From Fistulifera solaris (Eukaryota > Bacillariophyta > Bacillariophyceae > Naviculales > Stauroneidaceae), in contig AP026138.1 of assembly GCA_030295235.1 (NCBI GenBank), positions 620,001-684,000 on the forward strand: DNA of 64,000 nucleotides. The letters are read 5' to 3'. The stretch's first letter is position 1; each line of letters opens with the position of its first letter. Positions 11,645 to 57,040 of this stretch are shown piece after piece. The notes below the pieces were generated by a model that did no database searches, was not told where the DNA came from, and saw nothing but the letters and a program-made list of their open reading frames with translations. The position numbers and the translations under genes are program-made.

Positions 11645-11965
11645 CCAGAATTTTTTCTTTTCTGGACCACCCCAGAAATGAATTTCTGTATCATTGAAAT
11701 ACAAGTGGTCCAGAATTTCTGGACATAACCAGATTTTCTGTATGAATGAAATGCAACTGGTCCAGAATTTCTGGACCTACCCAGATTTTCTGTATGAATG
11801 AAATACAACTGGTCCAGAATTTCTGGACCACCCCAGATTTTCTGTATGAATGAAATACAACTGGTCCAGAATTTCTGGACCACCCCAGATTTTCTGTATC
11901 AATGAAATACAACTGGTCCAGAATTTCTGGACCACCCCAGATTTTCTGCATGAATGGAATACAAC
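11645..11965 (-). repeat. Palindromic tandem array 1 (52-bp unit)
   Basis: CCAGAATTTCTGG starts at 11710, 11762, 11814, 11866 and 11918, exactly 52 bp apart, with a degenerate first copy at 11645. On the minus strand each unit reads CCAGAAATTCTGG, 21 bp, CAGAAAATCTG, 7 bp. The spacer is also conserved, so this is a true tandem repeat. The array lies about 120-440 bp upstream of Lin0512 copy 1 and downstream of copy 2. Confidence 0.95.
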
Positions 11966-12294
11966 TCATTATAGTAACTTATACCCCGAGTGCTCACCTA
12001 AAAAGTCACGGTTTTACTTAACCCTTCTAAATGATGTTTGACAGACGAGGACGCATATAGTAAAAGTTTCATTGCTCAAGAAAAGCTGCGTTGCTATTAC
12101 AAAACTTCGTTCGAGGAGAACCGGAGACGTTACCTCAAGCTTGCTTATTTGTTACGACATCCTTGTTTACCAACAAAGCCAACAACGCTGGTCCAGCACG
12201 TCGCAAGTCCTCGTTGTTTAAAAAACAACAATATATGTCGCAGTCGGATCAGTGCATCGCAATCATTATTATTTGTAGCAGTTTCAGACTGGCA

Positions 12295-12859
12295 TTAATA
12301 TCCAACAGTCACAGCGACGCAGACGATCACCATGTCCGCATTTTGATCCCCCAGCTCTTCGACAACACTACCGCTGTTGGCTATCATCCCTCCGTCTTGG
12401 ATCTGAATTCGTACTTCACCATAAGGGAATGCTGCTTTAATCGTAGGAAGATCCAACTGTGCCTGGTATTTTGGCGGCACGGCTAACAAAACATCTAGTT
12501 TCAAGTTTTCTTTTCCACCGGGTATAATGCTTTTCAAACTAGGGAGTTGATTGAATTCAATGGCGTTTCGGCACGCTCTGACTAGTGATTTTATAAACAA
12601 ATCAAATATTGAGTCAATATTTCCTTTGATGCTTCTCAGTTTGCTTTGAACTTACCCGCTGCCTTGGTCGAATCCTGGCCGTGAGCATCCGACCCAAAGC
12701 CTGCGCCACAAAGATATAATAAGTTGACAAATGAACATAATAGACCGATTCAATATATTTTTGCTCAGAGTGTGCACTCACCGCACTCGACAAAAGAATG
12801 TTTTGCACATGAGACTCTTCTGACAGAGTCTGCGCCGTAGAAGCCTTACTGCTCTCCAT
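12295..12859 (-). CDS. Lin0512-family protein, tandem paralogue (copy 2)
   Basis: Same architecture as its neighbour: exon 3 at 12295-12581 (287 bp, identical length), exon 2 at 12656-12700 (45 bp, identical length) and exon 1 ending at 12782. The motif GFGSDAHGQDSTKAA is formed across the first junction, with RACRNAIEFN, QDGGMIANSG and VAVTVGY following. Exon 1 contains SEESHVQNIL; the expected FVECG needs one extra T at the A4 (plus strand) 12792-12795. The start is uncertain. The first in-frame ATG I see is at 12859, but a presequence in an upstream exon (ATG candidates near 12975-12995) is likely by comparison with copy 1. Conserved intron positions prove tandem gene duplication. Confidence 0.8.
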
Positions 12860-13342
12860 AGTAGAGAAGGAAGCCGCAGATATACTACTAGTTATTTTGT
12901 TTCGTCTTTTCTGCAACAAGAAAGAACTTGTTAATAGTTTCAATGGTATAAATCGTTTGCGCCGCAAAGATCAATCGCATCCAAGCATCCATCATCAAAC
13001 GAAATCCTGCACCTCAAGTTGCACTATAGCTTGAAATGTACAACGTTTTTCTCATGACTGGATTTCAATCATGGAGACTTGATACTTTATCCTAACTACA
13101 ACAACTACAAGTGTCTATGCTTTCCTCTAGTACCAGGTATCTGATCTGTCTTCTTACTTTTTGGTTATTCACCTAACGGATCCCAATTTAGTACAAGTGG
13201 ACGTTTTGACCGTCGTTCGCATTGAAATTTCCAAGTTTTCCTAGAAGTCGAAAGCATTTATTTTTACGTTACCTCGACTCCGAGAAGAACTGAAATAAAT
13301 TTGACAAGAGCTATCATTTGCCTGCTCTATGTCAGTTGCTGG
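12860..13342. other. Intergenic, possible hidden 5' exon of Lin0512 copy 2
   Basis: 483 bp. Coding-like sequence continues upstream of 12859 without a stop for about 100 bp, but no clean start or splice site could be fixed. Beyond that nothing recognisable. Confidence 0.35.
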
Positions 13343-14157
13343 TTACCATGAATCTTCCGAAGAATCATCGTCGTCATTCATGTAAATGGGCTGGAGGGTC
13401 GCTGTAAATCGCGCTCGGTTTCGGGTATCTAGCAGATTGGTTGCAGTCAAACGCAACATGCTGGTTCCTGAATTCGCCTCAAACCACCGATTGGTCGTTC
13501 GCGGTCGACTCCAGCGCTCACCGTTTGAATGACAGAACTGATTGCAGGAATGGTGGTAAAAGAAGCTTTCGATACCTTTTTCACCCAGTTCGGTAATACC
13601 ATAGCTCCGTTTGCGGGAGCAGATGGCCACATCCGTCAGTTCAAATCGGGACTTCTTTCCCGTGAATCGATCGAAACGATAGCGACCTTGCAGATCACAG
13701 ACAATCATTTGTCCTCCAGAGCGATGATAGGTGAAATGAGAAAAGGCTTCCATGGCTAGTACACCCCACCCTACGTCATCTTCGTCGGCAATCCATCCAT
13801 TGTTCGAGGTATACTTTCGAAAATAACGAATCAAAGGCTCGACTAAATACTTCTTTCCGCCCATATTATGAAGACTTCCGTGTGTAATGAGAATTTCTTT
13901 GCCATTGTCACACCATCGGTTCCAATCCTCCGCGAACTGGATGGCCTTGGCCGCCACTTGAAAATCCGTCGCATAAAATTCGGTTTCGAGTGCCGAATAA
14001 TGATCCTTAAAGATTTTGCACACACATTCTTGTTGATTCCGGTTGCCTCCGATATAGGTCCCGCGTACGCGAGTCGAAATTGACCTTCTCCAATAATTTG
14101 GCGATGTACGTTCGCGCGGTCGCTGGTGAGATTAGTACGGGCGGCCGACGAGTACAT
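13343..14157 (-). CDS. Atypical alpha-kinase (MHCK/eEF2K type)
   Basis: The alpha-kinase core is clear. The N-lobe has RANVHRQIIGEGQFRLAYAG, then VCKIFKDHYSALETEF with the ATP-site Lys, then FLVEPLIRYF-like YLVEPLIRYFRKY. The catalytic DLQG sits in QMIVCDLQGRYR, followed by ELTDVAI, and the zinc-binding C-terminus GEKGIESFFYHHSCNQFC. The protein ends in an acidic DDDDSSEDSW tail. It is essentially a stand-alone kinase domain of about 270 residues. One frame change sits at C3 14060-14062 (plus strand) between the glycine-rich loop and the VCKIFKD strand. The start given is the first in-frame ATG (MYSSAART); an upstream exon ending near 14241 is possible because coding sequence runs on beyond it. 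Substrate unknown; eEF2 or myosin heavy chain are precedents only. Confidence 0.85.
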
Positions 14158-14721
14158 GATAGCTTTCTTTGTGCACTGAGAATCCCAAACGCGTCTTTGA
14201 TGGAGATGCGAACGATAGCGAAAACTTCTGCACCTCTGCAAAAAATGGCATCTTCAAGCAAAGAAGAAAATAAAGGCGCAAAAGATCGCGGCCCGAGAAC
14301 CGATGCGTCTCTTGACTAAAATCCAGTCATGGGAAAAACGGACAACACTTTGGACCCATAGTAAAACGTAACAGGAACGATCCGAATCGATTTTTGACGT
14401 CAATAGTTGGATAGATCATTCTTCGTATACCAGATCTCAATCTTCATCCAATTGATGCAACGACCACGTGTCTACGAGGTAACATTTACAATCGCAAATA
14501 TCATCCGAGGCGTTTCGTCTCGTGAATGCAATCCGGTCTTGACAAATTCGACGTCCTTACGTCATCGGGCGAACATTTTGTTCGTGATTTTTGCATCATC
14601 TCGTCGCAAAATCCACCATGGTGTGATGTGAAAAGTTGTTGACGCGTTCAGCAAACAACTCATTTTTGAATCCTTACTTGGATAAGCTTACTTCTTTTTT
14701 ATTACATCATAGGATTCATTC
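14158..14721. promoter_or_regulatory. Divergent promoter region, alpha-kinase / HslV
   Basis: 564 bp between two divergent genes. The part up to about 14260 may still encode kinase N-terminus. No specific element recognised. Confidence 0.4.
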
Positions 14722-15462
14722 ATGATACCTTCAATTTCTTCTAGACTTTTTTCAAGAAATGTGTGGAAAACTGCGACGTTCCGCACCTTTGCCTCGTCGG
14801 ACGGATGGCACGGAACGACGATTCTTTGCGTCAAAAAGGATGGAAAGATCTGTATGATGGGCGATGGTATGGTGAGCCAAGGTAACATGATTGTCAAACC
14901 GAATGCTGTCAAGATTCGCAGAATTCCCGATAAAGCCGACGCCGCGAGCAAAGTCACTCCGACGCTGGTCGGGTTCGCCGGCGCGACGGCGGATGCTTTC
15001 ACTCTCTTGGAGCGCTTGCAAGGAAAGTTGGACGAATACCCGGGTCAGCTACAACGAGCGGCTGTAGAAGTGGCCAAGGGTTGGAGAACGGACAAGTATC
15101 TTCGAAGATTAGAAGCGTCGTTGCTGGTGGCGGATGAAAAGGGTGTTTACGAAATGACGGGGAATGGCGATGTCTTGGGCAGTCATGATGGAGTTGCCGG
15201 GGTTGGTAGTGGGAGCCCTTTGCTATTGGTAAGTTCTGAAAATGTGTCTTTAAACATAGTCGAGATAAACGCGATTCTCATTTGCTGATGCAATTTACAA
15301 CCTATAGCCGCGGCGCGTGCTTTGATGGATTCACAGCTCTCCGCAGAAGAAGTGGCACGTAAAGCGATGAATGTAGCTGCCGACATGTGCGTGTATACAA
15401 ATCATCAATTTCTTGTCGAGGTAATAGACGCCAAGGAACCTACGGAAGACGGAGAATCATAA
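14722..15462 (+). CDS. hslV: ATP-dependent protease HslV, mitochondrial
   Basis: Two exons, 14722-15228 and 15308-15462 (GTAAGT ... CTATAG), about 220 residues. A basic, hydroxylated presequence ([20 protein letters not shown]) precedes the threonine protease core. The core starts HGTTIL, and the first Thr would be the N-terminal nucleophile after processing. Typical HslV landmarks: [39 protein letters not shown], then GVGSGSP and AAARAL across the intron, and [12 protein letters not shown] near the end. It would form a dodecamer with the HslU ATPase in mitochondria, as in other protists. One base is missing at T3 15219-15221, so the last residues before the intron change frame; splice phase only works with that base. 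Confidence 0.92.
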
Positions 15463-16610
15463 GAATGGGCGTCCCTCTTATTAAAAGGATGATTATTCCC
15501 TCTAGAACCACTTCTATCAAACCTGCATATCCTGATGTTTTCGTAAAGCTATGATTCATAGGACTCCGATTAGGTGAAATATAACAATTCCAGCCAAGTG
15601 GAATTCCACTGGGGACGACTCGCAATCAATCCTCGCCCGCACCACGTATCAGTCGTTCTAAAATCATTCGCAAGTCATCGTACACGTTAACTATCTAAAT
15701 CGTCATGCTTCGTAAATATTTTCAATGTGATCAAATATTCTGAGCTCTGATGCTGCAACGTTTGACGGACTTTTTAGGTACTGGTAGCGTGATTAATTTT
15801 GTGACTCAAAGTTGCAGCTGATGCTCGTGACGTCGACTTTGTTGCGGGAATACGAAAAAAATTTCATACATTATTCCAGAGTAAAATGCTCGCCTCGACC
15901 GAATGTCGTTGAACTTGAAGCGATCCACGGCTTTTTTCCTTCATGATAACTACGAATGTACATGAAGTCTTCTTTTGGTCTTGTTTCTTGTTTACATACG
16001 CTACTTATTCATTCGTTAATGTTCTATGCGATTGCATGACTGCATAACGAATAACGATGAGGCTCCGAACTACGAGCGTCTTCATCTCATGTCTCGTCTC
16101 CAACTTCTACGCTACCTTTTATGTAATCATGAATCCCAGTTTACTATGGAAGAAGCCCAACGAAATCATCGACATCAGCATCCTAAACTAAGATGTCGCG
16201 ATACAGCTTCGTACTGCCAATCGGCCACGTCCGTTAAGCCCTTTGATAACGTAAAGTGTCAAGTGCCTTCCTGCACAGCATCCAGCGTTCACTCGAGCTA
16301 TAACGTAACAGAAAAGACAATCGTCTGACGTTACAGAAATGTACAAGTGTGACAGAAGCAAGATATCCGACTCTCCATTCGCCTTGTCGGTACAAAATCC
16401 ACAGGATTCTACGCACAGGTGGCGTGGCAATCCATGTTTAGATTCCCTTCCGTAGAAACACTACCGCGACACTTGGCTCGCGAATTCCGAGCGACACATT
16501 CGCCTTTCTCAAAAATTTGCTACCGATCTCATTTCTTTGCCGAGAAAGCTCATCGCATATCTTTTTTTCATCCGATGTTTTTTGAAGAGTTTGACAAGCC
16601 TCACGACACC
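15463..16610. other. Intergenic region
   Basis: About 1.1 kb between HslV and the DUF6824 gene. An in-frame extension of the DUF6824 frame reaches back to 16419, so part may be its 5' coding end. Otherwise no supported gene, RNA or repeat. Confidence 0.4.
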
Positions 16611-17773
16611 ATGCCGAGACCTTTACCCCGCAACAAGAAGAACGAAATCGAAGAAATAGCCGGTTTGCAGACGGTCCCGATTGCCGACCTCACCTGTCAT
16701 GATATCCTGTTGGGTAGAGGAAATGCAGTCGCGCACAGTGAGGGTAACGTCGGCTATCGAGCCATTATCTGGCAGTTTCGGGAGGTCTATGTGGCTGCAT
16801 CGCGTGACAAGAAACAAGAGATTGCACAGCAAGTGATCGACCAAGTCTATGCGCTGGATCCTCCCGGACGATTCCTCGAGTACATATCGGAAGACATGTG
16901 TCGAGAAGTTCCCCATGCTCGTATCCTCGAGAAATGCTGCCAATCGTTGCGAGAAAAGAAGTACAAGAAGAAAGTTCCCGAGACGTATCTTCCTTCGCTC
17001 CGTAAGCAGTCCTCGACGAGTAGTACCTTGTCGAAGACGCCGCGACGTGCCTCCCGCAAGAAAAGATTCTCTCCGCGAAAGGCCAAGACCGTCGCATCAT
17101 CGATCCAGCAGACCGCAAAGCACGAGCCTCCTACAAAGCGAGATGACGAGTTCAATTTGACACAAAGCAAGATCGGAAAACAACCCAAGACGCGAAACTC
17201 AGGAGCCGATGCGCGGGAGGCCGACGTGCAGCAAGTGGAAGATTCCAACAGCCCCTACTGTGACGAAAAGCAAGATGCGACCGAAACCGAGATGGATATC
17301 GAAGAGGAGACTCCTATTTGCGACAATAGAAGCTTCATTAACGCCAAGAAACTTCTTTTGGGCAAAAGGTTCGACCATCTACAACGGAAGCGACGAAGGC
17401 GAAGCCTCCCCCTTTGGAGCAGCCTGCTGCTATCGAGAGCACCGAGCAAGTCGTTGAAAGCGTGGAAGAGTCCGAAAATGAAGTCTTCGACGGCATGTTC
17501 AACATGTTGCCTCTGTCTCTTGTGGAGTTTTACGCCACATCCGCGAGCGACGACCGCATCCATCGCGAAAAGACGCGCGAAGAAAGCATCGAGTCACCCA
17601 CCACCGTCATGGACGATTTTGGTTTCCTTCCACCGGTTCCTTTGCAGATGGCACATTCGCTGTACCTCGAAGGTGAAAGCAAGTGGGTCAACCCCGCGGA
17701 TAATGTCACTGCCAACGTCGTGGCCGCGTGGACGGAATTCGCCACCAGCGGCGCTTTTGCCCGATACGGCTGA
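16611..17773 (+). CDS. DUF6824-domain protein (diatom-expanded family)
   Basis: Start placed at ATG 16611 in a good context (CACCATG); in-frame ATGs at 16575 and 16419 are alternatives. The domain is at about residues 25-125: DLTCHDILLGRGNAVAHSEGN, YRAIIWQFREVY, KKQEIAQQVIDQV, GRFLEY and ARILEKCCQSLREKKYKKK. This is the DUF6824 signature (LLGRG, GN, GGRFL-like), a family strongly expanded in diatoms and suspected to bind DNA; its role is not established. A basic Ser/Arg/Lys-rich region follows, then an acidic, probably activating C-terminus (ESTEQVVESVEESENEVFDG). The C-terminal part lies one frame off; the change maps to T4 at 17356-17359, where one extra T restores continuity to the stop at 17773. 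Confidence 0.8.
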
Positions 17774-18846
17774 GCATTGTCGGCAATTTTTGGTTTCATA
17801 GATACGTAAAATTTATTAGTAGTGTTGACTGTTTACATGCATGATATTCTTTAGCTTTGTGAACAACATATCACTTTATAATTACATCTTCAATATCTTC
17901 ATAGCAGCGCCGTTTGCAGTTTTGGTGAAAAAAGCGTGACGATGGGTCTAGTTTGTACTATGGACTTTTGTGTTGGTTCAGGCGGTTCCTATGTCCATCC
18001 GTCACTCGAAATTCGAATGCTCCAGTCTCGCTCTCGCAGCCTCTCATCCATCTCCTTTCAAAACATTCTTTTATTCTTCTTTGCTTTTTTTGGAAAAGAA
18101 TCATGCTTTATTTATTCCTAATTTCCTAGAGTCTTTGCTTATCTTTCCTCAATAATATCCTTTCTATAGATACTCTGTCACGCATCGGCAGAGAAGACGA
18201 CAACATGAAAGACACCTCTTGCCGTGCGTGTCGTTTTCATCCGTTTTCACAATAGCCCAAAGTGTTGTCCGTTTTTGCCACGACTGTGATTCAGTCATGA
18301 TTGCATCTGTTGTCTTATTCATGTGTGGGGCTCCCATTAAAGTCCCTCCTTGCTTTTAGTCTCTATGCAGGCATTTTGACTATCATTGAAATGAGGTTTA
18401 TCGCTGTAGGACTTGAATTTTATTGAGATCGAGTCGATAAGGTCCGGTTGCTACCTGCATCGATAAAATTCCTACGAGGCCTACGTGGATTTACGTAGAT
18501 ATTCGAAGCGTAGTATCTTCGCTCTTTATCTACGTATTCATTTCAAAGCGTTTGTAATCATCGGGGATTAGTGTGAACGGTCAAGGCTAGTTCAGGGTAT
18601 TATGAAAATACAGTCAACTCGAAGTCTTCTATTGTTGATGCCTTGATCCTAAACTGTTCCGTTCCGCCCCTCAAGGACACATGTCACTTTTTACTATAGA
18701 GAAAAGTGTTGGTTTACGGAGAACACGACTGACCTTACTCTAGTCTTGCCTCCACCCGTCTCTCCGCTTCAAACAAAGCAACAATAAAAAGTACGGAGTA
18801 GGTCCTTCCGTTTTCATTGCCTTGACACTTTTTCATTTGCATCAAC
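17774..18846. other. Intergenic region
   Basis: 1.07 kb. Near 18470-18540 TACGTAGAT/CTACGTGGA-type short repeats cluster, possibly binding sites. No supported gene. Confidence 0.4.
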
Positions 18847-20924
18847 ATGTCCAAGAATATAGTGAAAAACAGAGCTCCCGCCCCATTCAAATATCGGCGG
18901 AGCAATTACTGCGCGAGGCCGCGGATCGACAACCCGAGTCGGCTCCGATTGAACCGGTCGTCAAAGTTCACGACGCGGAAGAGTATCAGGCCCATTTGCG
19001 AGAACGTCGTCAGCATTACGAAGACAATATTCGATACAGAAGAGATGATATTGCCAATTGGATCAAGTATGCGAAATTTGAAGAAGAAAATCAAGAATTA
19101 GAACGCGCGCGGAGTGTTTTTGAGCGGGCGTTGGAAGTCGTCTCGAGTCGGTCGCCCGATTTGTGGTTGCGGTATGTCGAACTAGAGTTACGCAATGAAT
19201 GTATCAATCATGCTCGTAACATTCTGGATCGGGCCGTGCAGCTGCTACCGCGCGTCGATCGTCTCTGGTACAAGTATGCCTACGTCGAAGAAATGGTGCA
19301 AGACATTTCGAAATGCCGCGCCGTATTTGAACGATGGATGCAATGGTTGCCGGACGATAATGCGTGGCTCTCTTTTGCTCGCTTTGAAACGCGGTGCGGG
19401 AACGTCGAACAAGCCGAAAAGGTGCTTCGTCAATACGTCAATGCGTATCCGAGTGCTCGTGCGTTTTTACGCTTTGCCAAATGGGCCGAATTTGAAATCA
19501 ACAACATTGCGCTGGCTCGAACGATATACGAGTCGGCCTTGACCGAATTAGAGCCTGAAGAAGTGCAACAGGCGCGGTTGTTTCGGCAATTCGCATCGTT
19601 CGAAGAGCGGCAAGGAGAATACGAACGCGCGCGTGTCATTTACAATCACGCCCTCAAGCTATTGAATTTGGAGCAATCCGCCATGACAGATGAAGACATT
19701 TCGGAACAAGAACAGCAAAAACGAGAGGAGCTTTATAAAGCATATTTGGCGTTCGAAAAGAAACACGGCAATCGTGAGGGGATAGAAAGAGTTCTGGTGA
19801 CGCAACGTCGGGTCAAATACCAGAAGCAGGTGGGAGAAAATCCGTACGACTATGACTGCTGGTTTGACTGGATCAAGCTAGAAGAGTCACAATTAGACAA
19901 CACAGCAGCAACACGCGATGTTTATGAGAAAGCTGTGGCACAAGTGCCGCCGTCATCGGATAACAAGGATCATTGGCGGAGGTACATTTACTTGTGGATC
20001 TTTTATGCCGTGTACGAAGAACTCGCAAATCATGATTTAGATCGAGCAGCCGAAGTCTATCAAACCTGCTTGTCGCTCATCCCTCACAAAAACTTTAGTT
20101 TCGCGAAAATTTGGATTTACGCCGCACAGCTCCAGATTCGGCGTAAAGATGTCACTGCCGCTCGTAAGCTATTTGGCAAAGCCATTGGTTTGTGCGGTAA
20201 AGAAAAGATCTTCACCGAGTACATCGCCCTAGAACTCGCTCTTGGTGAAATCGACCGATGCCGATCCATTTACAACAGCTACTTGAAAGCTATGCCTCAC
20301 AATTGTAAAGCTTGGTCTAATTTTGCTGAATTGGAAAAATCGGTGGGCGAGACGGAGCGATGTAGGGCACTGTTTGAATTGGCTATCGCGCAGCCGGCAC
20401 TGGATATGCCAGAGGTCTTATGGAAAGCATATATCGATTTTGAAATCGAGGAAGGCGAGGGAAAACGAGCTCGGGCACTGTATCAAAGACTTTTGGAGAA
20501 GACGAACCATGTCAAGGTTTGGATATCATGGGCGCAATTCGAAGCGACTCCCGCTGGATTGGGTATGGATGAATCGCGTAAAATTATGGAAAAAGCCGAC
20601 GATCAATTACGGAAAGAGCAGCTATCGGAAGAGCGCGTCTTGTTGCTCGATGCGTGGCGCGTATTGGAGCAAGAACACGGCGATGTTGACAGTGTTAGTA
20701 AGGTGGAAGCGAAGATGCCTCGCAGAATCAAACGCAAGAGAATGCGACAAGATGAACAAGGCAATGACTTGGGATGGGAAGAGTATTTCGACTACCAATT
20801 TCCCGACGATGAAGGTGCAGGTGCTAACAATTTCAAGATTCTCGAAATGGCGGCTAAATGGAAAGCAGCCAAGGCGAATGCAGCGGACGATGATGATTCC
20901 GATCTTGACAGTGATGATGAATGA
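18847..20924 (+). CDS. CRNKL1: Crooked-neck/Clf1 (CRNKL1) pre-mRNA splicing factor
   Basis: About 693 residues of HAT (half-a-TPR) repeats, e.g. WIKYAKFEEENQELERARSVFERAL, LWLRYVELELRNECINHARNILDRA and WLSFARFE, repeating through to about residue 620. An acidic tail (DDDDSDLDSDDE) follows. This is the scaffold of the Prp19-associated (NineTeen) complex, acting in the spliceosome in the nucleus. The conserved N-terminus [25 protein letters not shown] identifies the start at 18847, although the present sequence changes frame at C4 18881-18884. An alternative start at 18822 would give a long frame, but its first 25 residues are not conserved. It is convergent with the next gene (266 bp). Confidence 0.93.
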
Positions 20925-24622: not shown

Positions 24623-24763
24623 ACTGCAAGTAACTAAATGTTCGGTCGACTTGAATGAAGGAATGTACAATATATTTTGTGCTTTACTTTCTTGCTTTGA
24701 TGTTGATTGCTTCGCGGATCTTTTTTTATTGTAAAAAAAAGTTCGCCTGCGATGGGATATGTC

Positions 24764-24980
24764 AAGAGTTTCTGGACACGCGTGAAGACACTAACTCTCC
24801 AGATTTTCTGGATACGTGAAGACTAATAATTTTCTTGACACATGAAAACAACACCCCCAGATTTCATGGAGACGTGAAAACAATACACTCCCAGATTTCA
24901 TGGAGACGTGAAAACAGCAGTCGCCCAGATTTCATGGACACGTGAAAACAACACACGCCCAGATTTGGAGGTGTGAAGAC
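24764..24980. repeat. Palindromic tandem array 2 (34-bp unit)
   Basis: CCAGATTTCATGG occurs at 24857, 24891 and 24925, a related CCAGATTTGGAGG at 24959, and CCAGATTTTCTGG at 24799. The period is 34 bp (13-bp core plus 21-bp spacer with CGTGAAAACA). Degenerate copies start near 24764. The array sits between the beta-oxidation gene start and the DapF stop. Confidence 0.9.
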
Positions 24981-25108
24981 ACAACACAAGGCTCCGGGAC
25001 CATAAATAATGATATCGATCATTTGACATGCTATTCACATTGAGACAATCATAACAAGTTGACACTTATATTTTTAGAAACAATCTTGTTGCGCTAACTT
25101 AAACTCGC

Positions 25109-41834: not shown

Positions 41835-42620
41835 AAAAAATGCAACACGATCGACACATTGAAAATCCACTATGAAACAGAGTGTTGGTTTACGCCAGCC
41901 AAGACTGGATTGTACAGTAGTCATGAACCGAACAAAAAAGAATTTCGTTTTGCGTCTCTCGCATCCGTCCATTGTCATTCAACTGCGAATATAATTATGA
42001 TTACGGGTAAGTAAAGTCACAACAATGATGATTTTGAACCCGTTCTTAAGAGTTTCTTTTATTTTCACGCAAAAAATCCGAGGATCCCACACCTCAAATT
42101 TCCACTATCAAACGGAGTGTTAGTTTACGCCAGCCAAGACTGGATTGTAAAGTATTCATGGACCGAACAACAAAGGGTTCCGTTTTGCGTCTCTCGCGTC
42201 CGTCCATGGTCATTCAACTGCGAATATAATTATATTTATAGGTAAATAAAATGGCAACAATGATGATTCTGAACTACTTGTCAGGAGTTTCTTTTAGTTT
42301 CACGCCAAAAATTCGTGGATCGACACCTTGAAATGCCACTATGAAATAGAGTGTTGGTTTACGCCAGCCAAGACTGGATTGTACAGTAGTCATGAACCGA
42401 ACAACAAATGGTTACGTTTTTCGTCTTTCGCATCCGTCCATTGTCATTCAATTGCGAGTCTAATTATAATTACGGGTAAATAAAGTCGCAACAATATAAT
42501 TTTGAACTGCTTGTTAAGAGTTTCTTTTTTTTCAAGTCGAAAATCCGAGGATCGACACCTTGAATTTCCACTATGAAACGGAGTGTTGGTTTAGGCCAGC
42601 CAAGACTGGATTGCAGTCAT
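41835..42620. repeat. Satellite-like tandem repeat, ~234-bp unit
   Basis: Four copies. The block GCCAGCCAAGACTGGATTG starts at 41894, 42129, 42363 and 42595 (spacings 235, 234, 232). Conserved flanks include CGTCTCTCGCATCCGTCCAT and GGATCGACACCTTGAA. The last copy is truncated about 35 bp before the LTR element. The core contains the inverted repeat CCAG-CCAAGA-CTGG. Confidence 0.93.
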
Positions 42621-45700: not shown

Positions 45701-48700
45701 AATATCAGCGGTGTCCCCTGTCAAAAGCGTCATGCACTTCACCATCTAACTGTCTTATGGAAAGACAAGAGTGGCTCCGAACATACGCGTGGTAGACCAA
45801 ACATAGGTCCCATAGACAACGTGGGGAATTCGTGCGAATCATAGCACGCCCTATACATCCTTTTCAATTCACGAATGCCGTCTTCAGCGAGGGTTGGCGT
45901 TGGGCGTGCTTCGATCGGCCTAATGGTCGCTTGCACTCGTTAAGCCTTTCGCTTAAACTCTCCTGCTGTCAACTCTCCGGCATTGTCTGGAATTAAAGTG
46001 TGAGGGACTCCGACGCTGACGAAACAAATTGTCAAGCGTGTAATGGGCATCGCTTTTCTTTTCAATTGGGTCCACACATATCCAGTGAAAGGGGGTGCAA
46101 TACACAGCCGCATATTTGTTACCCAGCAGTGAGACACATGTACCGACCAGAATGTCGCAGTACATCTCCGTATTAAGCCGAGGATAACGCAGCTGGTAAG
46201 CAAATGGTTTGAGACGGCAGCGTTCCAGAGACTGTCGAGAAGTCCCGAATTGCCCGTTAAGGCCGTTCGCTGGAGCGTTCGCCTAGCCGTCTCGATCCCT
46301 ATACTCCATCGTTTTGCCAAATCTTCGGGTGTGACATATGCTTTCCGGTTCTTCGTTGAGATTGCGGCACTTGTAAGCGAAGCAGCATACGAATCGATGT
46401 CAAAAGCTGCCGAACCGCTCAGCTGAAATCACAGCAATCGAACGAGCTGGCGGGACAAACGTGCGCTCACTCGTAACCGAACCAAGCATCCTCTGTCCCC
46501 CTAAACGAATCTCAGAGTCAAGGGAAACACGCAATGAGTCCTCATCATGCTGGCGTGGTTAGAATCCATAGGATCCCAGAACGACTCGGAGGTGACGTTT
46601 ACATGGATGCAGTCAACGTCCGAGCTCAGTTCTTTGTCGGTCGGTCGGCGAGTGGGGAAATATGAAATAGTCCCCATCAGTTTCAAAGGAATCTGGAGAG
46701 CTGGCTCAGAAAACAAAATAGAATGGCTCTCCGGGTGACGTTGTTCCGAGGTAGGTGTAGGAGAGGAGTTTCATTCACAACGACTTGGTTGTGCCGAAGT
46801 TGAGCGGGGCTGATCAAGTGTCGATGCATGTTTGAAAAGTAGAGTGACTGGTGAAAGAACAAAACGTGGGTTTGCAGCGTCGTGGGGCAATCGTATGCAA
46901 CCGCGAACTGTACCAATGGGAACTTTGGTCACTTTCCCAAGAGAACTAATGAATGGTTCCACCGAAACTGTTTCACCGGGTATCATACACGAGAACCGCG
47001 TCTTTACCGAACGAGCAAGTATCACAGTGCGAGTCCAATTCAGCTCTACCAGGAGTCTGTTGTCGCATTGCCGCCGCGAACTCGCTGCACCGCCAGTCAA
47101 GGTCGTCGACTCATGCGGTTACCTGTCGACTCAACCACATCGTCACTATCGGAGTCAGCCGTCTCAACAGCTGAAGCATTTCGCTCTCGGACTTAGCCCT
47201 TTCACGAGCATTGCGAACTTCTTCCTGTTTCTCTTTCGGTAACTTGATCCACTCCTTCCATTTGTAGTACGGGACACCATCCTTGCCTCTCTTTGCTTTT
47301 CCGCCCTTTCCTTTACCAGATTTGCCGCCACCTTTCTTGTTGTTACCGCCAGAATTTCTGGTAACCGGAAGAAATGTTGCGAGTGGAACCACGGGTCTTT
47401 GCTGCATCTTGCTTCTTTCTATCAACCTGCTCAGCCAAGTAGTTCATCGCGTTTTCGAAGGTACTTTCCAACACAGCATCAGCCCGGACGCTCGACGCTC
47501 ATCTTTAGTTCATCTGCCCAGATGTTGTCTAGAAAGATTCGCACCTTCCTATCTTCAGTCATCACCTCACCCGCCTCTTCCAAGTCCAAGAAAGCCAAGT
47601 TAAGCTTCTGACAGTAGTCTTCAAAGGTGAAGTTACGCCTTTCCATCATAGAAGACTGTCGAAAGGACTCGGTCGGCATGAGCAATGTTGCGCTTCTGAT
47701 AAGAACGCCCCATATAGTGGGTCTTCAAGGCAAAATAAGCGGCGTCCATCCTTGCTGTAAGCAAAAGGCTTAACCCAATTCCAAGCTGGTCCACCGTGCG
47801 AAACCTGACGAATAACGAACGTTTGTCTTCTTCATACTGGTCTCCATCATGGCGAATGCGACGAACAAGTTCCGACATAGCATCAGGGACACCGAAACCT
47901 GGATCATCAACCCCTTCGATTCCATCGGGATCGACATGCTCCCGCACAAGGTACGACAAAGGCGCACCATAAGCTCCAAGGTGATTGCCAAGTACCTCGC
48001 CGATGTCTTCAATCGTCTTCCGAGCGTTTTCCACCTTCAACAACACATCGATCTTAGGAAGATCTTTGTTGGTCTCACGCATGCGAATGCGCTCGCAAAG
48101 TCCAAGCGCTCCAATCGAGCAAGAGTTGCAAAGCCAGGAACAAACTCGCTGCAAGCGGTGCAAGTGGAAAAGGAAGTAAGCTGACGAACACGGAGCTCAA
48201 GATTGACTCCGATCGCAATACCACGGTTCGGAATCATCGCAGGTACCATCGGTGCAGCCTCCGCTCCAACCGCAGGAGGGACAAAGGCTGGGTTTGGAAT
48301 CAAACCCCCAGGGTTTCGAATCTTCGTAAAGATCTCCTGAACGTACTTATCACTCCGGTGCGTCAAGTCGTCAAACGCTGGTAATGCCTTGGCCATTGAT
48401 GGCCTGACGAGCTGCCGCATCCTCAATAAAGAGGACATCTCGGAGGTAGTTGTTGAATGCAGCAAGATTGGCTGCCATCGTAAACAAGGAGAAAGGAGAG
48501 AAAGTTCACAAATCGGAATGCGAGGGAGATAAAAACGAAACGACGTTTTCTTTTCTTTTTGTGTGCGAAACTGCATCGTCGCTAAAACGTTTGCACGAAA
48601 TTCCGACCCCTTTACTCTCCCTTCGAGAGTGTTGTTTACTGTAGGGAACTCCAGTGTAAAGCGCCAAAAGTGCCCTTATGTACGTAAGGCCATTGTACAC

Positions 48701-49362: not shown

Positions 49363-49451
49363 CCGAAATAAGGCAGTGGTGTAAAATTATGACTACAAGT
49401 GTTACATCTACCACGGAGGCTTCCCCGTCTGTACTACACTCGGTTATTTCG
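49363..49451 (-). repeat. 5' LTR of the copia-type element
   Basis: Second copy of the 89-bp terminal repeat. The internal sequence next to it on the minus strand would hold the primer-binding site, but I could not match it to a particular tRNA. Confidence 0.9.
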
Positions 49452-49808: not shown

Positions 49809-50903
49809 TCACCGTGCACTTGCCAGCATTGCCATCCGAAACTTCAACCAACCGCCCGGAAAGGTGCGAGCGTCACGCCCGTTGACAGCACCACCACCGC
49901 GTATTCTTAGCAAAGGAGCCCAATGACGTGGACCCTTTTTCACTTGGACAGCATTTTCTTTGAGCCAGCACCACAAAAGATGCTCGGAATTCCAATCACC
50001 CTTTCCTGTTTGAGTAGAAACGTCGGCTTTCTTGGACGAAACACCTGAACGGAACCACTGTATCCATAATTCGACCGAGTTCCAGAAATTCGTTCCCTTC
50101 TCCAGATCACCATCTTGGCCACTTTTCACGTAATCGAAAAATCCTTGCGCTTTGGCCTGAACGTATATTCGAGCCGCCGCTGGACCCGCTACGGCAAAGC
50201 GATCGTTATTTTCATCATCGTCGTGTACTTGCCAAGACGGCACGATCAATTCGTTGTCGGCGATATTACAATGAAGGTCGACTTTGTCGGCCAGAAACGT
50301 GTCGGGACGCGCAAACACAAAGAGTTGGTACTCTTTGTCGTTCTGGAGGACATGTTGATAGGACTGCATCATAGAATTGCCTTGTCGGAACATGTTTTTC
50401 AATGTATTGAGCGTCCATCCTGGACCAAACTGCATCAAATGCTCTTCTCCGAGCCACGTGAGATTGCGGGCGTCAAAGTCGGCCTGACGCGTTTGTACGA
50501 GTACGTCATTGCCTTGTCCTATCGTTTCAAGAAGAGTGGTGACCGATTCCATTTCAACGTTGACTTCGCCGTTTTTTGGGTTGGTCAGCGTTTTAATGTC
50601 CGAATAAAGGTGCATGGAAACATCAAACTGAATGTGCGGATTGTGATCCATGAGATTTTGTCGATAGGCTCTCCATACTACAGGAAATGATTTCGGTAAC
50701 CCAAAGAGTATAAAAGCCGCTTGACATTGCGTATGATTGTACACGACTTTGGGATCTTCAACCAATTGGAAGAACCAAAAATGACACAACAGATTGAGCG
50801 ACAGCACGACGAGAAAGAGCATGACGGCAAATCGTACGGAGAGCATGTTTCGCCGTTTCCCGTAATGATGCTTTTTGTACGGGGAGTGTCTCAAGTGTCT
50901 CAT
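49809..50903 (-). CDS. Type II membrane protein, putative Golgi glycosyltransferase-like
   Basis: 364 residues in one clean frame from ATG 50903. A basic cytosolic tail (MRHLRHSPYKKHHYGKRRN) precedes one TM (LSVRFAVMLFLVVLSLNLLC), the topology of Golgi enzymes. The lumenal domain begins AAFILFGLPKSFPVVWRAYR and contains FDVSMHLYSDI, FVFARPDTFL and GWTLNTLKNM. An RPD-type acidic motif and a Trp-rich C-terminus resemble uncharacterised diatom and plant proteins with a GT-A-like fold. No donor or acceptor can be named. The gene lies just beyond the LTR insertion and is intact. Confidence 0.7.
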   Translation of the reverse strand: MRHLRHSPYKKHHYGKRRNMLSVRFAVMLFLVVLSLNLLCHFWFFQLVEDPKVVYNHTQCQAAFILFGLPKSFPVVWRAYRQNLMDHNPHIQFDVSMHLYSDIKTLTNPKNGEVNVEMESVTTLLETIGQGNDVLVQTRQADFDARNLTWLGEEHLMQFGPGWTLNTLKNMFRQGNSMMQSYQHVLQNDKEYQLFVFARPDTFLADKVDLHCNIADNELIVPSWQVHDDDENNDRFAVAGPAAARIYVQAKAQGFFDYVKSGQDGDLEKGTNFWNSVELWIQWFRSGVSSKKADVSTQTGKGDWNSEHLLWCWLKENAVQVKKGPRHWAPLLRIRGGGAVNGRDARTFPGGWLKFRMAMLASAR

Positions 50904-51393
50904 CCTGTCTTGTTAATTGTATTGTTACAGAACGTATGCGGTGGAGTCAAAACGAAAAAGATGCTATGACGACAAGAAGGGAAATCATCATCGAGCCGCA
51001 GTTTTTGGCCGCACTTTTCACAACGCAAAACCTAGTTAAAGAGCGTGGACCCTTAGGGTTAAGGTACTGGTACTCGCCCCTTGATTTTCCCAACGGTCCG
51101 TTCCGACTTTTCGGATCTCCGTTGACATACAAACTCAAAGGAAATAAATTTCATACTTAGGAGACAACATATTCTTTACTTAGTAGGATTTTTCTCGCGG
51201 ACGAAAAAAGCCCAGCAACGAACAGATCGTGGTGGAATTTGGCTCGCAAGAGGTGCGCTTGACAAGAGTGAACTGGAGGGAGAAAGCAATATAAAGGACC
51301 TGATTATCATCGTCGTCGCGGAGCTACATCTGTGCAAAGTGTTGTTATTCAAACGATCCATCGTCAGAACGACGGTATTCAGACATCGGAATC
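50904..51393. promoter_or_regulatory. Divergent promoter region
   Basis: 490 bp between the type II protein and the next unknown gene. No specific element recognised. Confidence 0.35.
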
Positions 51394-52323
51394 ATGGAAA
51401 TTGCTGACAAGAATGCGTATTGGATAGCTCATCAACCCATACGTTCTTTATCTGACGAGGACCGAGCCAAGTTGCAGCGTCGTGCCCCTTTTCTTTCCAC
51501 TCGGTCCGTCCCGGAAACCCCAAGTTCGACGCTGGATCCTGAATTGCGGACTATTTTTGAACGAAAACTGAAATCATCGGCATTCTTCAAGCCTGTAACG
51601 GAGGTAACACCGCAAGATGTACCTGAGGAGGCTCTCCCTCAAAGTGCATCATCCGTGCAAAAGAAGAAACAGTTGAAAGAACAGAATCCGAAGAAATGAA
51701 ACAGTCTTCAACCTTATTGACGCGAACTATGCTATTTGCCGAGAGGCGCAGGAAAGAAGGAAGAGAAGTGTTTCGTCGACGAATGGTAAGCTTTCATTTT
51801 GCTCTTGTGTGTCTTCTTCAAAAGTTGTTGTCTCACGATACTTGAAATCCAGCAAACTTCCGCTTGCAATCCATTGAATGAAACGGAGGCTGCAGTCGAT
51901 AGGGAATGCGCCCGTGCGAGACCGTCGGTCAATGATCGAGTGGAGATGTTAGAGAAGGAGGAAACGACACCGGAAAAGGATGCGGATACTGTTCTCAGTT
52001 TTCCGAATCCGGTTGATACCAGCTTTTCATCTGTCGATTTAACTGATCGGGAACACCTTTGGACGACTTCTCGTCCCAATGAGTTTCTCGCCCAACTCAA
52101 GCAACTGAGTACTAGAGTGGCGCACATGATTTCGTCCGAAGAACGTAAAGAAGAAGAAAAGGACGCGGACGAGAACGATCCAATTTACAGTGCTCGCTTG
52201 AAAGATGCGGAAAAGGCCAATCTAAAGTGGTACGAACGCCCCTTCAAAACCCACCCTTTGGATTACATACCCAAACCCAACTCCAGATTCAATTGTCTCT
52301 GTCCGGGGATGGTTGATTTCTGA
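51394..52323 (+). CDS. Unknown charged protein, two exons
   Basis: Start at ATG 51394 (MEIADKNAYWIAHQPI). The frame shifts at A4 51659-51662; with one more A it continues through EETVERTESEEMKQ to the exon end at 51785 (RRRM). Intron 51786-51852 is GTAAGC...CCAG, and exon 2 starts QTSACNPLN. The total is about 286 residues: acidic, Glu/Ser/Thr-rich, no TM, helical middle (FLAQLKQLSTRVAHMISSEER) and a C-terminus NDPIYSARLKDAEKANLKWYERPFK. I do not recognise the family. Two separate short genes would be the alternative reading, but the exon-intron fit and composition favour one. Confidence 0.65.
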
Positions 52324-53092
52324 TTAAAAGGACTAATGCAGAATTTGATTTGAATCGAAAATTGTCAACAATGCCGTGTACGTTACGCTATTTTTGTGCC
52401 ACCAGACAAGTAACTCCTTGTAATCGTTTGTTTGCCCTCGAACCGATCCCCATTTCGTTGTACATAAGAAATGGCTCGCTGCCCGTCAACGCTTGTCTCT
52501 AGCTAGTCGCTCGACGAACCATTATGAAGTACGAAACAATTATTTGTTTTAGGTCACTAGTTAGAGCATCGCTTTATCAGGCTTTGTCTGCTTTGGACTC
52601 AGTCCCAACTAGCTAGTTCGAAGAATCTTACCGCATTTGTGAAAACAATCCAAATCCGTTTTTGTCAGAGCTCACATCCAATCCACGGAAACTGTCAGCA
52701 TCGTCCTGATTCAAAAATGGCGCCAGGTTTTGGCGCTGCGGCCCACGTGCAACAGTCGAGTCCTCAACGGCGATGGAGATTCGGTTCAGGGAACAGATGG
52801 AACGTCGTTTGCGGTTGGTTCTCTTGTCAACAAACCGTCGGATGGGTCACCCTAGAGAGGTATATCGTGACTCAATTGGAGAAACGACCTGGGACATTGC
52901 GCCGTGACACTGTGACAACTTGTAGAAGAATGTCCGAACGTTGGGCGATAGTAAGTCAATAAGTACTCAGTAGATGATGTGTCCTCGAGTTTTTTTTTTG
53001 TCGGCATCGCGATCTGTGTGATTTTTGACCATGACACCATTGCCTATGGAAAGAGAGCCAACAATAAAGCCCTCTTCTGGATACTGTAAGAA
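52324..53092. other. Intergenic region
   Basis: 769 bp. CTAGCTAG-containing segments near 52500 and 52610 form a weak inverted pair. The 107-codon frame at 52639 shows no domain. No supported gene. Confidence 0.4.
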
Positions 53093-54501
53093 ATGGCGTT
53101 CAGTATTCATCAGCAGCGCGCTCTCGCTGTGATTCCCAAAGTCACCGGTAATGTCTCTGCCTTTTTCAGTGGCTTAATTATATATACCATTGTGCGCAAC
53201 GAAAATCGAAGAAGTCGGACGTATCATCGCCTTTTGTTTGGTATATCCTGTTGCGACGTTTCTGCTTCACTTTGGTTAGCCTTATCGACATGGCCGGTTC
53301 CCAAATCGAGTGGCTTGCTCTGGGCCATCGGCAATGACACATCTTGTAATGTACAAGGATTTTTTACACAATTTGGAATCGCCAGTTCATTTTACAATGC
53401 CAGTCTGTCCGTTTACTACGTACTTGTAATACGGTATGGCTGGAAAGAGCATCAATTACAGAAAGTGGAACCCTTACTTCATTCATTTCCTTTGCTGTGG
53501 GCTACAATCAGCGCGATTGCGGGCTTAATCAAGGGAGTATTTGGCGCGGCTTCTTTGTGGTGTTGGGTGGCGGCCGAAAATAAAGTCTTTCGTTGGGCCG
53601 CCTTCTATGGTCCACTCTGGCTTATGATAGGGATTGTGACTGTCAATACTACTTTAATTTATGTGCACGTTCGAAAGATTGAAAGAGCTGCTACTCGGCA
53701 CCATTTATTTCGAGACTTTTCGTCGACGTCTCCTGTCCCGGCTTCGTCTTCCGCTGCCGCACCATCTCAGGAATTGTCCTCGCAGCCGTCTACCCGAAAA
53801 TCTTTATCCAGCAATTTCAGTTTACGCTTGTCGTTCGAAGCGGTCCGCAGTAGTTTGAATACGACCGATAACAGCGCCGTGACGGAGGCAAGGCGAGAGG
53901 ATATCAATTTACGGCGAGCACGGCTGCGGACAAGGTCTCGCTACACACGCGAGGTGGCGATTCAAAGTTTTCTGTATGCCGGTGCTTTCTATTTGAACTG
54001 GTTCGCGTTGACGGTAAGTGTCACAGCGGATCACTAAAAAGTGTTGCGAAGGGATGTATCTCACTTTGACGACAACGGCAGATTACGCGACTCTTGCAAC
54101 AAGTCAACGGAAAAGTGTATTTTCCCTTGCTGTTACTGGCAGCATTGACCGTCCCTCTTCAGGGGCTTCCTAATTTTCTAGTCTACCTGCTACCTCGCCT
54201 CAAAAAACTACGAACTCCCCAAGGGCGAGAACGAATCGCCCATGAAATTGCTTCGCGGCTGAGTCGTCTCACTTCGGTTGGAAAGGAGCCCGGTGCATCT
54301 TCGGGTCACAGTGAGGTTGTCGACTTTACACCACAGTCCGAACTCTTCCCCGAAATCGAAGCCATTGACGCATTGGTTGAAGAAAGTGACAATCAAGACA
54401 GTTGCGAAGATCTACCTACATTAATCAAAGATCTCGAGACGGATATCAATGAACTAGAAGGCAAAAGCTCGTCACCCAATCGTATAGAAGAAACAGCGTA
54501 G
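53093..54501 (+). CDS. G protein-coupled receptor, cAMP-receptor-like class
   Basis: Two exons, 53093-54013 and 54082-54501 (68-bp intron, GTAAGT...GGCAG), 446 residues. Seven TM helices: TM1 near GNVSAFFSGLIIYTIV, and TM2 in LLFGISCCDVSASLWLALS. TM3 is in FGIASSFYNASLSVYYVLVI, with a Cys in TSCNVQGF that may pair with one near ASLWCWVAAE before TM5. TM5 is WAAFYGPLWLMIGIVTV; TM6 (SFLYAGAFYLNWFALT) is cut by the intron and TM7 is YFPLLLLAALTVPLQGLPNF. The long basic/Ser third loop and the WCW motif resemble Dictyostelium cAMP-type receptors, the class found in diatoms. The C-tail is acidic. Ligand unknown. No frame errors. Confidence 0.85.
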
Positions 54502-54583
54502 AAAGGATCCGTTGATGTGTCCTTATTGTTTGTTAAAATAAAAAGATAGAGAATTGTATTGTACTACTCGTGTGACTTCTTTG

Positions 54584-55594
54584 TTAAGCGGGTATCTTGG
54601 CAGTGACTTGTGACAAGTCACCTTGCACTTTGGAAACGCAAACAAAATTTCCATCCAAATCCGACTTCCACAGTTGCACCGTTCCTCCATCACCCGACGA
54701 TGCCAAGACCGTACCCGTAACATTCCACTGACAACGCCAAGCATTGGCATCAATCGTCTGTGAAGACTCGAGTTTCAGATGCTTGTTGCTGGAAATGTCA
54801 TTGCTTTTATTGTCCGCCGCGTCCCGACGAAATTTGTAAACGCGGAGTTGTTGATTCTCCGCAGATGCGATATAATGAAAGCGTCTACCGACATTCGGAG
54901 CCCACGCGACATCGAGCACATCTCCCTTGGCGGGTGCTGGCAATTGGACCAGTGGTTGCCACGCACGCGCCGATTCACTGTAACGATAAATGACAAGATG
55001 ACTGCCCCCGGCGACCAGTGTCGGCGGTTCGAATCGTCCATTGCACCAACTCAAACAGGTACATCCCAACTTGGATCCTTCCTCGAAGGATTGTAAGGCG
55101 GCTGCAAGTGGCCATTGGGACAAATTCATAATATCGACCGCCTCATAAATGCGGACACACCCATCCGCACTTCCGACAGCCAATTTGAGACCCCAATGTC
55201 GCGGCGCAAATTCGAGACACGTGACACCCCGACGGGCTTCTGTCAATGAAGCACGCAACGTCCATCGACTCGCCATCGTATTGGTCGTATGACTCCGTTC
55301 TTCCCAAATCTTGGCGTCATGATCACTCCCGCACGTGGCTAAAATGGACCCAAATTCCGGATGCGCCCAACACACACTCGTGACCGAACCACGATGAGCT
55401 TGCCATTGCGCCGCGAGCGTCCATTCTCCCGAATCCGTCAAATCCCACACTCGCACGAACCGATCTCCGGAACACGTGGCAACGCGCCGTCCGTACGTAT
55501 CAAAACTGACCCAGTGCACGTAATCGAGGTGCATCGAGGGAATGATTTGGGTCGATTGATTGACGTGAACGAATTCCGAATTGTCTTCGGTCAT
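54584..55594 (-). CDS. SEH1: Nucleoporin Seh1 (WD40)
   Basis: 336 residues, one clean frame from ATG 55594. WD40 blades are visible: DYVHWVSFDTYGRRVATCSGDRFVRVWD, HRGSVTSVCWAHPEFGSILATCGSDHDAKIWEE, GVTCLEFAPRHWGLKLAVGSADGCVRIYE, and the terminal WNVTGTVLASSGDGGTVQLWK. The SADGxVRIYEA and HxEFGxxLAxCSxD patterns distinguish Seh1 from its relative Sec13. It belongs to the Y-shaped Nup107-160 complex and to the SEA/GATOR2 complex. It is tail-to-tail with the GPCR gene (82 bp) and divergent from the third repeat array. Confidence 0.92.
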   Translation of the reverse strand: MTEDNSEFVHVNQSTQIIPSMHLDYVHWVSFDTYGRRVATCSGDRFVRVWDLTDSGEWTLAAQWQAHRGSVTSVCWAHPEFGSILATCGSDHDAKIWEERSHTTNTMASRWTLRASLTEARRGVTCLEFAPRHWGLKLAVGSADGCVRIYEAVDIMNLSQWPLAAALQSFEEGSKLGCTCLSWCNGRFEPPTLVAGGSHLVIYRYSESARAWQPLVQLPAPAKGDVLDVAWAPNVGRRFHYIASAENQQLRVYKFRRDAADNKSNDISSNKHLKLESSQTIDANAWRCQWNVTGTVLASSGDGGTVQLWKSDLDGNFVCVSKVQGDLSQVTAKIPA

Positions 55595-56019
55595 TATTGT
55601 TAATGTGAGTTTTTGTATTATCTACAATTATGTCAATTGACTGGCTGGGAATGAAATGAATGAATCAAGTAGTTTATGTTAATTTTATTTCATTTCATGG
55701 TGTCATCATTCGTTGCACATCGCAAATATCGACGCGACGTGTGATGTGATGAGGGATCCACCGCTGGATCTCTCGAGCGACGGACAGGTCAAACAATCGA
55801 AGGGAAAACAAAACACGAGGACAAGAGGATGGCCATTATCATGACTGTTTAGTCCTTAAATAACAACATTCACAGCGACAAATCCATTGATTAATAGTTT
55901 GTCAACAATCGAAGCTTTCTTTCTCATTTCATTCATTTGTTATTGGGTGCTGTAGATGACGGGACTGCTGTCTCGTTAAATCGTCATCGGTGTTTTTGCT
56001 CTAACAGAAAATATGTTGT

Positions 56020-57040
56020 GGCCCAGAATTTCTGGAATCGTTGTTTTTGGTAACACAGAAATTTTGTGACAGCTCTGGATATTTTGGGATTTGAAAGTTT
56101 TGTCTCTAACAGAACTTCTGTGCACATTCCAGAAATTCTGGAATTGGTGTAATGGCCTCAAACAGAAAATCTGTGCCAATTATTCTGGAATCGGTGTTTT
56201 GGGTCACACAAAAATGTTGTGCACGTTCCAGAAATTCGGGAATTGGTGAAATCGCATCTTACAGAAATTCTGCGCTATTCCAGAAATTCTGGAATCGATG
56301 TTTTGGGTCACACAGAGATGTTTTGCATGTTCCAGAAATTCTGGAATTGGTGAAATCGCATCTTACATACATTCTGCGCAATTCCAGAAAATCTGGAATC
56401 GGTGTTTTTGATCACAAAGAGATGTTGTGCACGTCCCAGAAATTCTGGAATTGGTGAAATCGCATCTTACAGAAATTCTGTAATCGGTGTTTTGGGTCAC
56501 ACAAAGATGTTGTGCATGTTCCAGAAATTCTGGAATAGTTGGTTTCGCATCTTACATACATTCTGCGCTATTCCAGAATTTCTGGAATCGGTGTTTTGGG
56601 TCACACAAAGATGCTGTGCACTTTCCAGATATTCTGGAATAGTTGGTTTCGCACATTACAGAAATTCTGCGCAATTCCAGAAATTCTGGACTCGGTGTTT
56701 TTGGTCACACAAAGATGTTGTGCACGTCCCAGAAGTTCTGGAATTGTGAAATCGGTAGTTGCAGAAATTCTGCGATATTCCAGAAATTCTGGAATTGTTG
56801 TTTTTGGTCACACAAAAATTGTGTGACCGCTCTGGATGTTTTGGAATTGATGGTTTTGCCTCCAACAGAACCTCTCTGCTCATTCCAGAAAGTTTGGAAT
56901 CGTTGTTTTGCATCTACCAGAAAATCTGTGCGTTTTCCAGAAATTCTGGAATTGGTCGTTTGGCGTCTATCAGAAACTCTGTAGTGGTCCAGAAATTCTG
57001 AACTTTGAGCTTTGCGCTCTCTTTTCAGAAAATCTGGAAA
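56020..57040 (+). repeat. Palindromic tandem array 3 (52-bp unit, about 20 copies)
   Basis: CCAGAAATTCTGG or close variants start at 56023, 56129, 56176, 56228, 56280, 56332, 56384, 56436, 56521, 56573, 56625, 56677, 56729, 56780, 56885, 56937 and 56989, with degenerate copies at 56075, 56832 and 57025. Most intervals are exactly 52 bp. Two spacer types alternate over much of the array: TGAAATCGCATCTTACAGAA..., and GTTTTGGGTCACACAAAGAT... The first gives the 13+21+11+7 layout seen in array 1. One unit is shortened near 56470, probably by recombination between copies. Confidence 0.96.

Follow-up and report, generated by a model that had tools for sequence, protein, structure and literature searches.

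A dispersed family of palindromic 52-bp repeat arrays in the allopolyploid diatom Fistulifera solaris

The window analysed here, a 64,000-bp stretch of the Fistulifera solaris genome (contig AP026138.1, referred to as C23, positions 620,001–684,000), contains two intergenic arrays, array 1 and array 3, of tandem repeats built around a 13-bp palindromic core. Both appear to belong to a dispersed minisatellite family that is apparently undescribed so far; no description of these arrays was found in the titles and abstract openings of the open-access papers listed. With a probability that we put at roughly 0.55, the core of the family is held by a predicted dimeric DNA-binding protein and the arrays are mostly passengers of promoter gaps. 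The best reading of the sequences is that the family is not an essential promoter element.

The repeat family and its subtypes

The core with at most one mismatch occurs at 22 sites in the window, against 0.08 expected from 100 dinucleotide shuffles, none of which reached 22. Array 3 (55987–57076, plus strand) has about 20 units of about 52 bp and is of the TT-core-AA subtype. Array 1 (11628–11965, minus strand) has about six units of 52 bp, is of the GGT-core-ACC subtype and includes five exact cores. Edges and strands of both come from matches to a sequence profile of the unit, and Tandem Repeats Finder (TRF) reported a 52-bp period with 5.8 copies at 11659–11966 and, at 56105–57000, entries that overlap one another and have periods of 52 bp, 104 bp and more. 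Each unit carries two palindromes, A (CCAGAAWTTCTGG, the 13-bp core, for example at 11710–11722 in array 1) and the weaker, 11-bp palindrome B (CAGAAAWTCTG, for example at 11730–11740 on the minus strand in array 1 and at 56262–56272 on the plus strand in array 3). Read on the plus strand, palindromes and spacers follow the order 13-21-11-7 bp in array 3 and 13-7-11-21 bp in array 1, which therefore represents the unit of array 3 carried on the minus strand. The 13-21-11-7 unit of 52 bp given for both arrays in the initial annotation was in this way borne out by the sequence and by TRF.

The genome-wide scan for the core that had been proposed gave a clear result: the pattern CCAGAANTTCTGG has 2624 exact sites in the 51.7-Mb genome and the reversed control pattern has 3. 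The central letter is A or T at 2514 of these sites and G or C at 110. Twenty 10-kb stretches were retrieved, of which 17 surround core clusters listed for the first 1.1 Mb of contig C1. All 17 C1 loci, which were picked by exact core matches, contain at least two cores with at most one mismatch, and the other three stretches contain none. Altogether 136 units from 21 arrays could be aligned to a single consensus, CCAGAAATTCTGGAATAGGTGTATTTCAGTCATACAGAAATTCTGTGCATGTT, with the direction of each unit set by palindrome B. The family profile matches all 17 C1 array loci as well as arrays 1 and 3 of the window, and in each array one strand dominates. When built from all 136 units, it scores array 1 highest on the minus strand, matches array 3 on the plus strand and finds nothing in shuffled or reversed array-free DNA. 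As 14 of the 136 units come from the window, the matches to the window arrays are partly circular, and the profile was rebuilt from the other 122. It still matched array 1 (best 65.7 bits, minus strand) and array 3 (best 61.1 bits, plus strand), and nothing else in the window. Even a profile of 77 units from TT..AA-type arrays only matched array 1, at 48.6 bits on the minus strand and 19.8 bits on the plus strand. A two-core pattern had no matches in viral contigs, and its one prokaryote match, on a bacterial contig, is a different repeat of about 21 bp that we take to be unrelated.

The spacers of arrays 1 and 3 had been described as different, and they do lack a direct likeness to each other, but each resembles the arrays of the other subtype. 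When the 116 of 136 units with a recognisable palindrome B were compared, the first spacers of array 1 resembled those of TT..AA-type arrays elsewhere, and those of array 3 the ones of GGT..ACC-type arrays, beyond all 300 shuffles in both cases, and the likeness between the two subtypes exceeded all 60 shuffles. Arrays 1 and 3 by themselves would not reveal a common family; within the wider set, there is good support for counting them as remote members of a single family. In the genome the letters around the core are TT..AA at 1055 sites, GT..AC at 877 and mixed at 180, and both flank types occur within several single arrays. Elsewhere in the genome, array 1 has its better matches at 84–94% identity and array 3 mostly at 68–77%, and the GT..AC subtype looks younger than the TT..AA subtype.

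The arrays comprise from a few to about 40 cores with units arranged head to tail. Some are further organised into longer repeats, such as 213–214-bp blocks in loci L009 and L025 and blocks of 104 and 207 bp in array 3, where the longer blocks measure 104, 189–207 and 293 bp in all. The unit length is 52 bp in 69 of the 136 units, 53 bp in 21 and 51 bp in 16, so that 106 units fall within 51–53 bp, with the remainder spanning 49–58 bp. In L012, 13 of 16 units are 53 bp long, and the 213-bp block of L025 is made of units of 52, 52, 54 and 55 bp. It had been suggested that 52 bp, as five turns of B-DNA, places all cores on the same side of the helix. Such variable lengths imply that a fixed helical phase is not required, and strict five-turn phasing is ruled out. 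The common geometry had likewise been taken to mean that spacing is under selection or is fixed by a copying mechanism. The spacing is not strict, and since the spacers are distantly related within the wider family, the shared geometry of arrays 1 and 3 would be best explained by common descent, which makes convergence unnecessary.

Array 2 (24763–24980, edges set by eye, no strand assigned) had been counted as a third member. Its 34-bp period was found by TRF (24843–24966, 3.7 copies), but its most frequent core, CCAGATTTCATGG, is non-palindromic with three differences from the family core, and the family profiles do not match it save for one 10-bit match from the GGT-type profile. Similar 34-bp repeats are present in L016 (67 bp as a double unit), L021 and L023, all without an exact core. 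Array 2 may belong to this 34-bp repeat group and is at most a relative of the family. At L023:4193–4366 and 5792–5880, a 52-bp array is flanked by 34-bp repeats and, on the other side, by related repeats with a 46-bp period, as though one subtype had expanded inside the other.

Distribution over gene gaps and subgenomes

Placement relative to genes was determined for 22 arrays. Of these, 20 are clusters of at least two cores, and the other two, array 2 and L016:7010, are 34-bp arrays that were included manually. One array at the edge of L025 has no right-hand gene and was dropped, leaving 21. Genes were called by a hexamer score of open reading frames (ORFs), without introns or untranslated regions; the Lin0512 copy 1 gene next to array 1 is represented by its second exon and copy 2 was missed, which makes the gap of array 1 overlong though still tandem. 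With these ORF-based calls, each of the 21 arrays is 5′ of one or more genes, 11 being in tandem and 10 in divergent gaps, and none in a convergent gap. The absence from convergent gaps has a P of 0.02 when these are counted as 16.7% of gap length, array bases excluded, 0.004 when counted as 23.3% in array-free gaps only, and 0.0008 when counted as 28.7% of gaps by number. Divergent gaps, which make up 27.5% of the length, hold more arrays than expected (P 0.04), and array 3 alone takes up 979 of the 1882 bp of its divergent gap. The upstream placement reported initially was thus seen again, and random placement was not. Array-free convergent gaps are however short (median 233 bp) and insertion there is possibly harmful, so placement alone is no proof of regulation.

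The units were also said to point toward the downstream gene. This applies to array 1, for which Lin0512 copy 1 lies downstream in the direction of the unit, but at the 10 profile-matched arrays in tandem gaps the units run with the genes in seven and against them in three (one-sided P 0.17), and we make no claim on direction. Neither do we claim a regular chromosomal spacing, as the 18 arrays on the first 1.1 Mb of C1, with positions rounded by hand, have a coefficient of variation of 0.71 (P 0.08 against uniform).

F. solaris is described as an allopolyploid diatom (PMC5935921), and a 23-mer published for one of its genes (PMC8536745) has a single exact match in the genome analysed here. C24 encodes a copy, 93% identical, of a beta-oxidation protein from the window on C23, and further contigs form pairs in this manner: C3/C4, C9/C10, C15/C16 and C23/C24 were paired by matches and the other pairs are assumed from the contig order. 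The following counts of sites by contig apply among the matches listed. For TTCCAGAANTTCTGGAC (180 sites in the genome) odd contigs hold 96 of the 100 sites listed, all on C1–C17, and for CCAGAASTTCTGG (110 in the genome) they hold 47 of 50. Array 3 has 227 matches, and those listed include none on even contigs up to C26; beyond C26 they are on even contigs and none on odd ones. Matches to array 1 include four even-contig loci up to C26, on C4, C6, C10 and C16, and beyond C26 the array-bearing contigs carry even numbers. Across the homoeologous pairs, the sites listed have a strong bias toward one member contig.

Seven homoeologous sites were compared. Arrays 1, 2 and 3 as well as an array at C23:686.5 kb are absent from the corresponding C24 sites, an array at C4:500.4 kb is absent on C3, and a two-core relic at C24:655.3 kb, with a weak profile match (E value 0.03), has no counterpart in the window. 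One array is common to C15 and C16 at an orthologous site. In four cases the array is therefore found only on C23, in two only on the other side (one being the weak relic) and in one on both. Judged by the common array, the family predates the split at one site, and it would thus since have expanded, or survived, mainly on the side of one subgenome. Units with at most one change from a C16 unit are found on C3 and C23, and the four C16 units are more like the C23 array (49–51 of 52 positions) than like the C15 array at their own orthologous site (47–48). Unit sequences therefore appear to have moved between loci and subgenomes.

Constraint on the core and its possible causes

In all 17 arrays of at least six units the core columns have fewer mismatches than the spacer columns (means 0.095 and 0.228), also with units with decayed cores counted in. 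The single letters flanking the A core were not used in finding it, and their agreement between arrays is 1.00 and 0.86, compared with 0.46 for spacer columns and 0.61 for palindrome B (permutation P 0.013). When units were instead located by their middle motif, an exact A core was found upstream in 112 of 339, where 1.6% would be expected from the divergence of the middle itself. The core is thus likely to be constrained relative to the rest of the unit. None of the 28 cores with two changes was altered at mirror positions, where simple arithmetic gives about 2.5 by chance, and the lack of compensating changes favours recognition of the sequence over a hairpin. Our best guess for what conserves the core is binding by a dimeric protein.

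Several observations weigh against this picture. Set directly against each other, the first spacers of arrays 1 and 3 are no closer than shuffled ones, 68 of 300 shuffles scoring as high. Because the units were cut where the core matched well, the contrast seen in 17 of 17 arrays is biased toward core conservation. In the middle-motif test, 133 of the 339 units have at least five mismatches at the expected place of the core, the shuffled control gave 19 matches, and the test is further weakened in that the middle motif contains palindrome B and can catch out-of-register A cores. Finally, the flank letters at offset 2 from the core covary (85 of 117 distinct flank types are paired, 51.6 expected). 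We read this covariation as the two subtypes, and a process that keeps symmetry would leave an identical trace.

If the proposed course of events is correct, unequal exchange or conversion would enlarge the arrays and homogenise their units, and new array sites would be seeded by some route. The A core with its flanking letters, T-CCAGAAWTTCTGG-A, would be kept since a putative sequence-specific protein binds it as a dimer, and the arrays would be tolerated as mildly selfish passengers of promoter gaps that the adjoining genes do not need. The main rival is a purely neutral dispersed minisatellite, with the apparent conservation of the core produced by core-based finding and cutting together with recent homogenising amplification. 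The higher-order blocks of 104, 207 and 213–214 bp would then be ordinary satellite turnover, near-identical units on unlinked contigs would reflect recent spread, and the variable presence at homoeologous sites fits as well. We nevertheless hold a neutral origin to be rather unlikely, as the core is less mismatched than the spacers in all 17 of these arrays even where the spacers have strongly diverged, and the letters beside the A core, on which no selection of sites was made, are conserved too. An improbable alternative is the idea of the initial annotation, that selected promoter arrays regulate the adjoining genes. Such a role would agree with the excess of divergent and lack of convergent gaps and with the share of its gap that array 3 occupies, but the short convergent gaps perhaps offer little room, and unit direction relative to tandem genes has no significant bias. 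A shared regulatory role is weakened because arrays 1–3 are absent from the homoeologous C24 sites and the listed sites lie nearly all in one subgenome.

The remaining alternatives are all very unlikely in our judgement. A heat-shock element would tolerate variation at the third A of GAA. The core can be written as GAA-N-TTC, in one subtype with TTC-CA-GAA flanks, and could therefore be a site for heat-shock factors; those of oomycetes, which are stramenopiles, bind GAATTC, TTCNGAA and TTCTAGAA according to the parts seen of PMC11267843. The third A is indeed the most variable core position, since 26 of the 77 single core changes are at position 6 (16) or position 8 (10). The positions that would be gaps in such an element are however no freer: position 2 has one change, position 3 has seven, position 11 six and position 12 three, that is 17 of 77 and fewer per position than the rest (position 13 has three), and the GT..AC subtype with its 877 sites lacks the outer TTC/GAA. 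We thus disfavour a heat-shock element. Least probable is a hairpin or cruciform in which the symmetry matters and the sequence does not. The paired letters at offset 2 speak for it, but the excess is only slight at offset 3 (53 against 44.9), is absent at offsets 1 and 4, and no compensating changes were found in the core itself, for which we disfavour a hairpin.

Arrays carried as cargo of a non-autonomous transposon, as with the Helentrons of oysters, would account for the many unlinked sites in both orientations, and we consider this hardly more probable than a heat-shock element. Up to 400 bp on each side of 27 arrays were compared (one of them the unrelated bacterial locus, which had no flank in common with the others, and with one flank empty at a locus end). 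Only 12 of 1431 pairs were similar, mostly for other reasons: two are orthologous C15/C16 flanks, six match via the 34-bp repeats of L016 and L023, three contain a short element near L011, L018 and L037, and one is a 28-bp match. No common transposon ends were found in these flanks, and with no generally common flanks we disfavour carriage by a transposon.

A bolder extension of the protein-binding interpretation, which is speculative and on the present sequences improbable, is that one parent brought both the palindromic arrays, at hundreds of promoter gaps, and its own dimeric DNA-binding protein. The arrays would then physically mark one subgenome, and homoeologs could be expressed or packed differently, perhaps with two paralogues of the protein for the TT..AA and GT..AC half-site classes. 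The figure of hundreds extrapolates the 18 arrays counted in 1.1 Mb.

Neighbouring features and known systems

Two tandem genes of the Lin0512 family lie on the minus strand at 10841–12970, one on either side of array 1, which places array 1 5′ of copy 1 and 3′ of copy 2. Copy 1 (10841–11560) has a Pfam match at 10841–11191, and its 5′ exon to about 11560 was judged by eye from the listed ORFs. Array 3 is followed on its right by a gene for a 2OG-Fe(II) oxygenase (57309–58193, plus strand, Pfam), the prolyl hydroxylase of the initial annotation. The Pfam scan covered ten ORFs of the window and also matched a silicon transporter, which we regard as a mark of a diatom. One solitary exact core is found outside the arrays, at 47349–47361 (no strand assigned), with no unit around it according to the profile. 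It sits within a minus-strand ORF at 47111–47443 and may be a stray copy; the chance expectation, calculated from 4^12, is about 0.004 exact cores per 64 kb. A 235-bp tandem repeat at 41849–42613 (3.3 copies) is without the core.

Two further repeats were seen in the fetched loci. L024:8367–10000 is a 429-bp tandem repeat with 96% matching, about 80% similar to part of L018 and similar in part to L009, L010 and L011. At L035:1130–1240 (C16:981930–982040) there is an element of 80–110 bp with about 60 weaker copies in both subgenomes among the matches listed. Its copies on C15 are partly found at steps of 214–226 bp, and it is possibly another dispersed tandem family.

Should a protein indeed recognise the core, subgenome marking could be tested naturally in this diatom, since gene pairs that have an array share a nucleus with others that lack one. 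About 61% of homoeologous gene pairs in F. solaris are reported to have a subgenome preference in expression (PMC5935921). If the arrays are nothing more than repeats, they still supply a simple sequence label that separates the two parental genomes, and the common and unshared sites allow timing of the birth, loss and homogenisation of arrays.

The family shares features with several known systems. The CENP-B box of alpha satellite is an example of a satellite that contains a protein-binding box. As there, a short box is conserved within faster-changing units, which suggests a DNA-binding protein, but the arrays described here are small and lie between genes, and their binding protein is putative. 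Allopolyploids have subgenome-specific repeats, and here too a repeat family has expanded in one parental genome; in this case the host is a diatom, a few arrays are found in the other subgenome and one examined site is common to both. In F. solaris itself, subgenome-biased promoter motifs (PMC5935921) are likewise promoter sequences that differ between the two subgenomes, although the motif named there is TABASTA and these arrays are not mentioned in the passages seen. The Helentron-carried satellite-like arrays of Crassostrea gigas (PMC7492417, as described in the parts seen) are similar in being short tandem arrays of related units dispersed over the genome, and the F. solaris family differs from them in having no generally common flanking module, a strong bias to one subgenome and a palindromic core.

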